DNA of 6,536 nucleotides from Acidobacteriaceae bacterium (GTDB lineage Bacteria > Acidobacteriota > Terriglobia > Terriglobales > Acidobacteriaceae): contig PLHN01000534.1 of assembly GCA_003139975.1 (NCBI GenBank), forward strand, positions 948 through 7,483, read 5' to 3'. Each line of letters starts with the position of its first letter. Position 1 is the stretch's first letter. The position numbers were made by a program, and so were the translations under genes. Below are positions 939 through 3,289 of this stretch, one piece after another. The notes below the pieces were generated by a model. The model was given only the letters and a program-made list of their open reading frames with translations. It was not told where the DNA came from and did not search any database.

Positions 939-1538
939 ATGCCAACCAACGAAGCACCCAAATGTCAGCACATCAAGACCAACGGAACCCAGTGCGGATC
1001 GCCCGCCCTCAAGGACAACCAGTTCTGTTACTACCATCAGCACTGCCGTCCTCTAACCTGGACCTATCAGTGCGGCTCATATCGCAATTATTCTCAAACG
1101 GAATTCACGTTGCCTGTCTTGGAAGACGCACATGCAATCCAGATGACTCTCCGGCAAGTCGTCGAACTCGTCCTCAAGCACAGAATCGACGACAAAAAAG
1201 CCGGTCTCGTTCTCTACGCCCTGCAAATCGCTCCCTCCAATCTCAAGCGCATCGAGCGCGAACAACCCAAACCCGAAGAAGTCGTCACCGACACCGAAAT
1301 GAGGCCCGCAGTCGAAACACCGGAAGAAGAGGAAGCCAATCGCGAACCCCAAAGCAACAACATCGACACAATCTACGGCTCGGCGTCCGACACCGAAACC
1401 AGCCCCGACGATCTTCCGTCGGTGGCCGCGTTTCACAACCTGAGTGAATTTTTGAGAAGCGCAGTGCCTAGCTCTTGCCACGAGCAAGCACAGCGAGCAG
1501 TTCCGCCGGTTCTGCGTTATCTCCGAACGTGCGGCTGA
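939..1538 (+). CDS. Small putative zinc-binding protein, acidobacterial CxH...C...FCYYH type
   Basis: The protein has 199 residues and no assigned function. Its N-terminus carries C9-x-H11, C19 and FC30YYH33, a spacing that suggests one small zinc site (C9, C19, C30, H33 as likely ligands, H11 as a spare). A predicted helical segment follows at about 62-108 (LEDAHAIQMTLRQVVELVLK onward), then an acidic, low-complexity tail (about 109-165, Glu/Pro rich). I recall near-identical N-terminal motifs in orphan, multi-copy proteins of Acidobacteriota; this cannot be verified here. The ATG at 939 is set by a strong TAAGGAG at 927-933 with 5-nt spacing. A hairpin (GGCAGC 909-914 with GCTGCC 920-925) sits directly upstream. 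The last 24 codons lie antisense to the end of the convergent redoxin gene, so the tail may be a read-on extension of a shorter ancestral protein. A DNA or RNA role is possible but unproven. Confidence 0.72.
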   Translation: MPTNEAPKCQHIKTNGTQCGSPALKDNQFCYYHQHCRPLTWTYQCGSYRNYSQTEFTLPVLEDAHAIQMTLRQVVELVLKHRIDDKKAGLVLYALQIAPSNLKRIEREQPKPEEVVTDTEMRPAVETPEEEEANREPQSNNIDTIYGSASDTETSPDDLPSVAAFHNLSEFLRSAVPSSCHEQAQRAVPPVLRYLRTCG

Positions 1539-2010
1539 CGTGCACGAACAGATCGCGATTGCCGGGAGCGAAGATGAAACTGGCTCCGAGTTGGAAAGGA
1601 TTCTTCCCCAGCCGGTGCTGGCGGTGGCCGGCGCGCTTGGCGCGACCGCGCGCCTGCGCGTTCTCGGAGCGCAACAGATGGAGCAAGTTTGCGGACCTTA
1701 ATTCGGCGGCCTGGTAAGCGGTGCGCTCGGCATCCACCAGCAGCGGAAAGGTGATGCCGGTTTCCTCGCGGAACAGCCGGGCATAGTTCATGTCGCCCAA
1801 TCCGATCGCCGCCAGCGTGGCCCCGGCCTGCTTGAATTCGCTTTCGTGCTCGCGTAACTGCGCGGCATGCTCGCGGCAGAAGATTCAACCATAATGCCGC
1901 AAGAAAACAATCACGGCGGGATTCGTCTCCCACAGCGAGCCGAGGCGGACATCGCCGCCGCTGGCTTCCGGCAAGACGATATTCGCAAGCTTTGTGCTGA
2001 ATGTTTCCAT
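1468..2010 (-). CDS. Peroxiredoxin-like (AhpC/TSA, PRXL2/SelL-related) redox protein, probable selenoprotein with in-frame TGA (UxxC)
   Basis: One frame runs from ATG (2008-2010) to TAG (1468-1470), 180 residues, broken only by TGA at 1885-1887. The protein starts METFSTKLANIVLP, a typical redoxin opening. A strand VIVFLRHYG (33-41) leads to residue 42 (TGA), then IFC45REHAAQLREHE. In this family the motif is HFG-C-xx-C-RE, so TGA replaces exactly the first, reactive cysteine. Later landmarks are GDMNYARLFREETG, FPLLVDAE and SRTFGDNAEPAELLAVLA, all PRXL2-like, and the length is normal for the family. The intact frame on both sides, the exact position and a hairpin just after the TGA favour selenocysteine; SelL-type relatives are known selenoproteins. 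The expected role is thiol/peroxide reduction in the cytoplasm. No Shine-Dalgarno precedes the ATG, but TACAAT ends 5 nt upstream, compatible with a leaderless mRNA. The alternative is a recent Cys-to-stop mutation or a sequencing error (TGC or TGT to TGA). Confidence 0.7.
1858..1879 (-). promoter_or_regulatory. Candidate bacterial SECIS hairpin downstream of the in-frame TGA
   Basis: Read on the minus strand, CTG-CGCG pairs with CGCG-CAG (7 bp, one bulged C on the 5' side) and closes a 7-nt loop AGCATGC, with G as the second loop base. Bacterial SECIS elements lie inside the coding region just after UGA and commonly have a G in the first two loop positions. Here 13 nt separate the UGA from the loop, somewhat short compared with E. 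coli fdhF. A second, shorter option is CGCG-CAGTTA-CGCG further downstream (1851-1864). The sequence is GC-rich, so some pairing is expected by chance. Confidence 0.4.
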
Positions 2011-2015
2011 GCCCG

Positions 2016-2021
2016 ATTGTA
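2016..2021 (-). promoter_or_regulatory. Possible -10 box of the redoxin gene (leaderless start)
   Basis: TACAAT on the minus strand (5/6 to consensus) ends 5 nt before the ATG at 2010, so transcription would begin at or next to the start codon. No clear -35 is seen. The space upstream is filled by the direct repeats at 2021-2047. Confidence 0.3.
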
Positions 2022-2047
2022 TCGGATGATCGGCCGGATCGGATGAT
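2021..2047. repeat. 10-bp direct repeat upstream of the redoxin start
   Basis: ATCGGATGAT is present at 2021-2030 and 2038-2047 (period 17 bp), each copy followed by (C)GGCC. The pair lies in the 109-bp divergent gap, just upstream of the TACAAT box of the minus-strand redoxin gene, where an activator might bind. Confidence 0.5.
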
Positions 2048-2070
2048 GGCCTGTAGCGTTCGGCGGCCAG

Positions 2071-2099
2071 TGGAGCCACTCTTCAAGGCAGCGTATGAT
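2071..2099 (+). promoter_or_regulatory. Weak possible promoter for the patatin gene
   Basis: TATGAT (2094-2099, 5/6) lies 17 bp after TGGAGC (2071-2076, 3/6). The implied start point near 2106 is very close to the Shine-Dalgarno at 2108-2113, leaving only about 14 nt of leader, so this is tentative. Confidence 0.22.
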
Positions 2100-2119
2100 T
2101 GCGCTCTCAGGAGCAACTT

Positions 2120-3289
2120 ATGAGCAGCAATGTCGTTCCCTCAAATCGCCCGCGCCGTCTCCTCTCGATTGATGGCGGAGGTTTGTGCGGGATCATTCCC
2201 GCGCAGGCCCTGATCGAAATCGAGCAGCAACTCGATGCGCTCACCGGCGGTCCGCAGCCCCTGTGCAACCGCTTTGACCTGATTGGCGGCACCAGCACCG
2301 GCGCGATTCTTGCCGCGGGCCTCGCGCTCGGATTCAGGGCGCAGGAGATGCGCGATTTCTATCTGAACCTGGGGCCAGAAATCTTCAGGAAAGATTGCTT
2401 GCTCGAGCGTCCCTGGCACAAATATCCCAGCGCGCCGATCGAACAGTGTTTGAAAGATAAGTTTGGCGAAGCAACTACTTTAGGTGACTCTCGCCTGCAG
2501 ACCATGATTCTCCTGGTTGCCAAGAATGCCACCCAGGGCAATGACTGGTTTTTCACAAACAATCCTGGGAACCGCTTCATTGAGCATAATAAGACGCTTC
2601 CTCTCTGGCATATTGTGCGCGCCAGCTCCGCCGCACCAACTTACTTTCCGCCGCACGCCTTTGCCGTTCCCGACCACAATGGCACGCCGCAGACTTATGA
2701 GTTTATCGACGGCGGAGTTAGCAGTTACAACAACCCTTCCTTTCAGGTGTTTTTGGAAGCCACGGCTCCGGAATACGGAATCGGGTGGCCGATGGGGGTG
2801 AGCAACTTGCTTCTCATGTCGCTCGGTACAGGCTACGCTCCCGTTACCATCAAAGCCGGGGAAGCCAAGGACTATACCCTGCTGAGTTGGGCTGGATATG
2901 TGCTTAAGGAATTGATGAACGAAGCGAACCTGGAGCAAAACGTGCTGATGAGCCTGATCGGCGAACGCCCCGTGCACGCGTCGGGGGCAAGTGCGGGTGC
3001 CGCGATCTCCACGGCGCCTTCCGGCACGCCAAGTGAATCCGCCCTCACGCACACCAGCGCGGGCCTGGGAACCAGGAAACTTCTGACTTACCAGAGAGTC
3101 ACCGTTGAACTTACCCGGCAGCGACTGGACGACCTCACCAAGGAGACCGACATTTGCCTGGACAACGTAGATCCCACAAAGGTGCGCGAGTTGGATGCCG
3201 TCGACCAGATCCCTAACATGCAACTCGTAGGCGAGGCCGTGGCCAAAGAGCAGGTCCACATGGAGCGGCTGATCTCATTTTTCAGATAA
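2120..3289 (+). CDS. Patatin-like phospholipase
   Basis: This complete 389-residue protein of the patatin family (Ser-Asp dyad acyl hydrolases that release fatty acids from phospholipids or other acyl lipids) has all three signatures. The oxyanion loop is DGGGLCG at 18-24, the nucleophile elbow is G57-T-S59-T-G61 with Ser59 as nucleophile, and FID197GG supplies the catalytic Asp. Strand and helix context (LLSIDGGG, RFDLIGG, ILAAGLALG) is typical. No signal peptide is visible, so it is probably cytosolic. A Gly/Ala/Ser-rich stretch at about 287-317 looks like a flexible linker before the C-terminal helical part. ATG 2120 is chosen over an in-frame TTG at 2099 because CAGGAG (2108-2113) lies 6 nt upstream of it. 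The gene stands alone: no cyclic-nucleotide synthase or other CBASS partner is adjacent, so a role in phage defence (CapV-like) is not supported here. The natural substrate is unknown. Confidence 0.92.
   Translation: MSSNVVPSNRPRRLLSIDGGGLCGIIPAQALIEIEQQLDALTGGPQPLCNRFDLIGGTSTGAILAAGLALGFRAQEMRDFYLNLGPEIFRKDCLLERPWHKYPSAPIEQCLKDKFGEATTLGDSRLQTMILLVAKNATQGNDWFFTNNPGNRFIEHNKTLPLWHIVRASSAAPTYFPPHAFAVPDHNGTPQTYEFIDGGVSSYNNPSFQVFLEATAPEYGIGWPMGVSNLLLMSLGTGYAPVTIKAGEAKDYTLLSWAGYVLKELMNEANLEQNVLMSLIGERPVHASGASAGAAISTAPSGTPSESALTHTSAGLGTRKLLTYQRVTVELTRQRLDDLTKETDICLDNVDPTKVRELDAVDQIPNMQLVGEAVAKEQVHMERLISFFR

Follow-up and report, generated by a model that had tools for sequence, protein, structure and literature searches.

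The TGA at positions 1885-1887 of the window (the whole stretch of 6,536 nucleotides analysed here, none of which is an N) lies in a conserved PRXL2/SelL-like redoxin and, judged from the sequence evidence, is very probably decoded as selenocysteine (Sec), with a probability of roughly 0.94, which would give the protein a UxxC active site. No other reading of the locus comes close to that of a UxxC selenoprotein, with which nearly all of the computational criteria tried agree. The window occupies positions 948-7483 of one contig (C110) of a 3.9-Mb draft genome (G000), which consists of 545 contigs and is 72.7% complete. The features of the locus are the following.

1468-2010, minus strand: gene for a PRXL2/SelL-like redoxin of 180 residues, with a single in-frame UGA (Sec42); a predicted selenoprotein on the basis of profile matches and orthologues.
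1885-1887, minus strand: TGA, codon 42, predicted selenocysteine and first residue of the UxxC motif (UIFC); TGA in 31 of 32 orthologues and Cys in distant homologues.
1876-1878, minus strand: TGC for Cys45, the putative resolving residue of the UxxC motif; all 32 orthologues have Cys here, in an invariant alignment column.
1851-1864, minus strand: candidate apical hairpin of a bacterial SECIS, CGCG-CAGTTA-CGCG, located 20 nt past the UGA.
1885-2079, minus strand: 64-aa ORF from a GTG, upstream of the TGA, as a standard ORF caller sees it.
1468-1857, minus strand: C-terminal part (residues 52-180), listed in databases as a separate 129-aa protein from codon 52.

The redoxin frame runs from an ATG at 2010-2008 to a TAG at 1470-1468, and its sole in-frame TGA (1887-1885, codon 42) is the only break in 180 codons. 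An earlier note on this DNA had described a 180-codon frame with a lone TGA at 1885-1887, which is borne out, the frame being on the minus strand, a point that the note had left unstated. The peptides around the TGA are also as it described them, with VFLRHYG before the TGA and IFCREHAAQLREHE after it (motif RHYG-U-IFC), and its placement of the TGA at the first position of a CxxC motif holds as well, given that homologues carry Cys at codon 42 and that Cys45 lies downstream. The read-through product passes the Pfam gathering thresholds of AhpC-TSA_2 (PF13911; 58.3 bits against 27, residues 51-160), AhpC-TSA (45.9 bits against 26, residues 7-105, spanning the TGA), and Redoxin (27.2 bits against 26.6), and the only NCBIfam family matched is SelL_rel_redox (NF040769), at 116.7 bits and thus below the curated cut-off of 120. 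The plus-strand reading of 1468-2010 was rejected because it is interrupted even when TGA is taken as a sense codon. An Rfam scan of the window gave five sub-threshold matches, none of them relevant, a search of 1380-2180 gave no promoter-like site, and inside the redoxin frame, ahead of the TGA, there are two terminator-like sites, for a chance expectation of 0.7 (SD 0.9). A plasmid origin was likewise set aside after tblastn against a plasmid collection returned four distant records only.

Among the distinct orthologues of more than 50% identity with readable DNA (n = 32, the window gene included), pooled without duplicates from named genome contigs and 200 genomes of the family, codon 42 is TGA in 31 and GGA in one, and neither TGC nor TGT occurs there, so that the TGA of the redoxin is more than chance. 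The nearest relatives in named genome contigs are metagenome assemblies of Acidobacteriaceae/Terriglobales, which makes an acidobacterium the likely host; at 17 loci in named contigs the codon is TGA in 14, TGC in two, and GGA in one, and the two TGC loci, at 33-35% identity, come from records titled Chloroflexi and Planctomycetia. Within 200 genomes of the same family, 20 carry an orthologue at 55% identity or above, with TGA in all 20, and 19 of these are in one piece while that of G170 is split over two contigs. Some redoxin match at E ≤ 1e-3 is present in 117 of the 200, and the remaining matches, among the matches listed, have at most 36% identity, some of them also with TGA. A phylum-wide search of 396 genomes recovered matches at E ≤ 1e-15 in 21 genomes, and 21 of these 22 matches contain the in-frame TGA, the other (L079) having TGC (Cys); TGC at this position is found in L017, L018, and L079. 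Extra stops in the phylum-level matches comprise a TAG in G213 and a second TGA in G074 and G426. In L073/L006 the second TGA falls at residue 177, and no second stop occurs in the aligned parts of L077 (up to residue 175) and L021 (up to residue 168), which places the extra stops at or near the C-terminal end. The earlier note had regarded further frame breaks in close relatives as a sign of a mutant, an error or a pseudogene, and none occurs apart from these few near-terminal TGA or TAG codons; both of the homologue types that it had proposed to look for at position 42 were found, TGA in the orthologues and Cys in database proteins.

The same distribution bears on the possibility that the window copy is a decayed Cys-type redoxin gene, a pseudogene in which the active-site codon was turned into TGA. 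A Cys form at 74% identity does exist (P0003), no orthologue was found in the seven other genomes of the genus, so that the gene is patchy, and the hairpin of the window copy, discussed below, is weakened by two changes. However, the TGA is shared by orthologues down to 55% identity and by homologues across the phylum, the frame has no other break, and a protein that is 100% identical from residue 52 is encoded in nine contigs (possibly counting the window's own record), all of which makes a pseudogene very unlikely. The preference of the earlier note for a selenoprotein over a lone nonsense mutation is thus supported by the conservation of the TGA across orthologues and phylum. A sequencing or assembly error at codon 42 could be suspected in a draft of 545 contigs whose selA contains an N and a frame break, but TGA stands at the same codon in other assemblies of the relatives, and the probability of an error is negligible.

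In the best 120 database proteins, position 42 is Cys in 21, Trp in five, Gly in one, and Arg in one, and the sequences of 92 entries start downstream of the TGA, in 87 cases with residue 52, inside the hairpin, so that most of the family is stored truncated in databases. The Cys-type proteins share 59-74% identity with the redoxin, although U may have been stored as C in some sources, and the five Trp proteins are probably products of TGA read with another code. For example, P0004 is 100% identical to residues 52-180 of the redoxin, P0002 has 84% identity to the window redoxin, and P0003 is the Cys form mentioned above. At the level of sequence comparison, the database set shows pairs of Cys and predicted Sec forms at one site together with an annotation artefact. 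The forecast of the earlier note that standard gene calling would split the frame agrees with the 64-aa ORF upstream and the 129-aa database protein downstream of the TGA. The truncated entries could also be taken to mean that the locus holds two genes, one a short N-terminal ORF and the other coding on its own for 129 residues from codon 52, but the orthologues and the full-length Cys proteins (21 of 120; 27-row alignment) conserve the N-terminal half, RHYG included, the modelled redoxin would lose its first strands and active-site residues without residues 1-51, and the conserved TTG sits in the hairpin loop, where the constraint fits an RNA element. Two genes are an extremely unlikely arrangement, and a single frame read through a Sec codon is preferred. 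Ordinary annotation truncates or drops genes with selenocysteine codons, and correction of these entries would add a Sec redoxin to likely acidobacterial genomes.

A SECIS-like hairpin soon after the UGA is conserved in the redoxin family. Its usual form in the relatives is TCGCGC-AGTT-GCGCGA, starting from the 20th nucleotide past the UGA. Since simple MFE folding of 46 nt was inconsistent, hairpins with a GU loop were tested against synonymous re-codings instead, and the hairpin ranked at or below 0.05 in 29 of 32 orthologues, whereas each of seven control windows taken from these genes gave such a rank in one to three of 31-32; a looser loop rule was less discriminating, with such a rank in 26 of 51 TGA genes. 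Stems of 5 bp or more occur in 23 distinct forms among the 51 TGA genes. The synonymous entropy deficit over the 32 orthologues is 0.87 in codons 43-54 (11 columns) versus 0.19 elsewhere (91 columns), for which the Mann-Whitney p-value of 3e-5 is a guide only, because related sequences are not independent. Similarly, Leu52 is encoded by TTG in 31 of 32 orthologues (TTA in the window copy), and TTG accounts for 69 of 610 Leu codons elsewhere. In seven distant Cys homologues (25-39% identity), the best hairpins reach -0.1 to -4.8 kcal/mol with ranks of 0.47-0.93, and none comparable to those of the Sec forms was found there. The hairpin of L031/L036 is TTGCGC-AGTTGA-GCGCAA, and remoter Sec homologues retain similar loops but on other complementary stems, including TCCGCC-AGTT-GGCGGA (L041), GCGGCGC-AGTT-GCGCCGC (L090), and GCGGTGC-AGGT-GCATCGC (L081); the loop of L084/L088 differs (CGGGCT).

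The hairpin of the window copy, with 4 bp and -3.9 kcal/mol against a mean of -8.3 over the 32 orthologues, owes its place among the weakest to GCC at codon 49 and TTA at codon 52, and it ranks at 0.05 among synonymous re-codings in the GU-loop test and at 0.39 in the looser test. The window redoxin might, therefore, be a true member of the family by descent whose SECIS hairpin has lost the capacity for efficient Sec insertion; the changes at codon 49, where GTC is commonest, and at codon 52, where TTA is unique in the 32, break the outermost and innermost stem pairs, and the looser-test rank fits such a loss. On the other hand, AGUU is kept in a six-base loop of the same size as that of L031/L036 (AGTTGA) over a GC-only stem of 4 bp, the protein is otherwise intact and close to P0002, and two further hairpins are similarly weak (L034, -2.5; L013, -3.7). 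A loss of efficient insertion has a slim chance, and decoding of the UGA as selenocysteine in the window copy remains the preferred reading.

Components of the Sec decoding machinery, for which the earlier note had proposed a search, were found in the window's genome as tRNA-Sec, SelB, and SelA (in pieces), while SelD was not found above its cut-off in the 72.7%-complete draft (best 75 bits, cut-off 125). The tRNA-Sec scores 70.9 bits with RF01852 and is also reported by ARAGORN (97 nt, tca), SelB, encoded by an open frame of 650 codons, reaches 368.3 bits against a cut-off of 242.25, and SelA lies on contig C230 in two pieces of 219.9 and 56.7 bits, each below the cut-off of 267.9, which adjoin an N, a frame break, and the contig end. 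SelD is present in all seven other genomes of the genus, six with TGA, so that its absence from the draft is plausibly a matter of incompleteness. All 19 orthologue-bearing relatives possess SelA and 17 possess SelD (absent from G198 and G007), with an in-frame TGA in the SelD of all 17, three of which read KAAG-U-ASK. Across the family, SelB exceeds its cut-off in 19 of the 20 genomes with a redoxin orthologue versus 90 of the 180 without one (Fisher p = 5e-5), the exception being G125 (71% complete), and tRNA-Sec exceeds 62 bits in 16 of 20 versus 84 of 180 (p = 0.004), scored per genome on 20 first-look candidates only. These counts rely on gaps in the bit scores (tRNA-Sec above 62 bits in 100 of 200 genomes, SelB over cut-off in 109 of 200). 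Raw E-value tallies for both were discarded as uninformative, with matches in 200 of 200 genomes and 14 of 14 controls that presumably come from ordinary tRNAs and EF-Tu-like factors. In addition, a formate dehydrogenase alpha frame on contig C102 (L093, about 1093) has an in-frame TGA followed by HGP, and downstream of it a hairpin with an AGUU loop, GGTCTCA-AGTT-TGGGACC. Its best piece scores 169.8 bits, below the model cut-off. This frame is likely a second selenoprotein of the window's genome, and the UGA-HGP together with the AGUU hairpin is an independent sign of UGA decoding in that genome.

An AlphaFold2 model of the redoxin, built with Cys in place of Sec42, has a mean pLDDT of 89.8 and places a strand (residues 32-39) and a helix (43-54) on either side of the motif. 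The best PDB match by structure is human prostamide/prostaglandin F synthase (9usa/9us9), which we take to be PRXL2B, with a TM score of 0.80 over the query and 22% identity, and the same synthase is the best PDB match by sequence; C44/C47, the CxxC pair given in the title of 9usa, would be the counterparts of residues 42 and 45. The predicted fold is thus of the PRXL2 kind, thioredoxin-type, the redox pair standing where a helix begins after a central strand. The name PRXL2/SelL-like, given in the earlier note, is right as a relation, in view of the structural match to the synthase and of SelL_rel_redox as the only NCBIfam family, and falls short as membership by score (116.7 against 120). 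In UxxC redoxins, Sec attacks and Cys resolves. By analogy, SelB carrying Sec-tRNA-Sec would bind the hairpin about 20 nt downstream of the UGA and incorporate Sec42. Placed just before the following helix, this residue would attack a disulfide or peroxide, and the intermediate would then be resolved by Cys45 as a selenenylsulfide, to be reopened by a thioredoxin-type reductant. Sec42 would accordingly be the attacking and Cys45 the resolving residue.

Several homologues differ at the motif or in the hairpin. L014 has GGA (Gly) for TGA with the downstream hairpin intact, a recent change or an error, and the database protein P0036 may come from the same organism. L039 (GUQFY) and L040 (AUPFG) have TGA at the same site and no resolving Cys, with strong hairpins in both. 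L090 (1501-2004, minus strand) and L091 (1510-1914, plus strand) are homologues with two in-frame TGAs (A-U-L-P-U-R), the second at residue 45, which would make them UxxU (ULPU) redoxins; they come from two genomes in one other genus of the phylum, each has a 7-bp AGUU hairpin right after, they score 179.5 and 156.6 bits with NF040769, and UxxU was seen only in these two among the loci examined. Another redoxin group from the same family (L041 and L042; RGHWUPFC), at 30-32% identity, also has the TGA, with a hairpin 9 nt nearer to it. An orthologue of 59% identity (L015/L078) comes from a record titled Acidimicrobiia, and the genome set places a match of the same identity in the phylum of the window, so that the title is probably wrong.

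The Sec or Cys label needs 11 changes on the best tree of 61 proteins (39 Sec, 21 Cys, and 1 Gly), with five of them forced by well-supported branches; the bootstraps of this tree are rough and not settled, and the most distant rows were left out of it. The tree excludes L038, which lacks residue 42, leaves L014 (Gly) unlabelled, and includes as full-length database proteins 19 of the 21 Cys and four of the five Trp forms. It is an evenly balanced question whether the UxxC branch of PRXL2/SelL represents a widespread, unannotated selenoprotein family of Acidobacteriota with UxxC, CxxC, UxxU, UxxY, UxxG, and Gly forms, repeated switches between Sec and Cys, and a G- or GU-bearing hairpin loop kept by most Sec forms on different complementary stems. 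If this is true, the redoxins of the branch would form a natural series in which to ask when the use of selenium repays its cost, and a family with several Sec/Cys swaps would be useful for testing why Sec is kept.

The surroundings of the redoxin gene vary, and open frames read by eye revealed no neighbour common to the redoxin loci of all ten relatives, with aminotransferase-like and SDR-like frames shared by L004 and L027. In the window, a REP-associated tyrosine transposase lies at 30-515 on the minus strand (NF047646, 97 bits against a cut-off of 80), and a patatin-like phospholipase at 2099-3289 on the plus strand is the divergent neighbour of the redoxin, its nearest NCBIfam model being a CBASS phospholipase (138 bits, below the cut-off of 200). 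An open frame with a Cys/His-rich start at 939-1538 on the plus strand overlaps the 3' end of the redoxin by 71 bases at its own end and has no Pfam or NCBIfam match; a protein similar to it (CQHIKTSGAQCGSPAL...) is encoded near the redoxin in L002.

In comparison with known systems, the NF040769 cut-off is exceeded by the relatives L016 (126.6 bits), L004 (123), L081, and L086, in a range of 122.5-136.1 bits, whereas L002 (115.9), L039 (109.5), the Cys form P0003 (108.5), and L040 (100.8) lie below it like the window copy, and the strongest scorers of the ten scanned are the UxxU proteins (L090 and L091) and not the UxxC ones. The human synthase has Cys where the window redoxin has its predicted Sec, and the likeness lies in the fold and the position of CxxC. 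SelL itself carries a diselenide UxxU. It is called "a Prx-like protein" in a passage of one report (PMC2398784), and a table of another contains a "ULPU-containing selenoprotein" with counts of 26 and 28 (PMC5029168), which would presumably be SelL. Sec at the first motif position and a Prx-like fold would be common to SelL/ULPU and the window redoxin, but the latter has UIFC, with one Sec and one Cys, in place of UxxU. Since the NF040769 score is missed narrowly and UxxU clearly, the window redoxin is filed under neither NF040769 nor SelL.

Other peroxiredoxin-like selenoproteins resemble it in part. A peroxiredoxin-like AhpC/TSA protein (cd02970) with UxxS appears as a predicted bacterial selenoprotein in sections of two reports (PMC13188914; PMC9312934, under PF13911), and it shares the Pfam family AhpC-TSA_2 with the window redoxin, although the motif is UxxS there and UxxC here. 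Different Sec motifs are counted as distinct subfamilies in a passage of the former (PMC13188914), and by that rule, as worded there, the UxxC form of PF13911 may be a subfamily of its own. Table 1 of the same report also includes a Prx-like thiol:disulfide oxidoreductase (PF00578) with UxxC/UxxU as a predicted selenoprotein; compared by description, it has an AhpC-TSA-type fold and UxxC in common with the window redoxin, but the latter scores higher for PF13911 (58.3 versus 45.9 bits). A PF08534 redoxin with UxxC is likewise in the table, which, by the text around it, holds 119 families (PMC13188914). For the phylum, sections of earlier reports give three selenoprotein families in Acidobacteria in 2006 (PMC1794560) and three known selenoprotein genes in the acidobacterium Occallatibacter riparius (PMC12013277), and a search of openly licensed literature found no description of a PRXL2/SelL-type redoxin with Sec from Acidobacteriota. 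The redoxin is unsurprising in kind, related Prx-like selenoproteins being already known.
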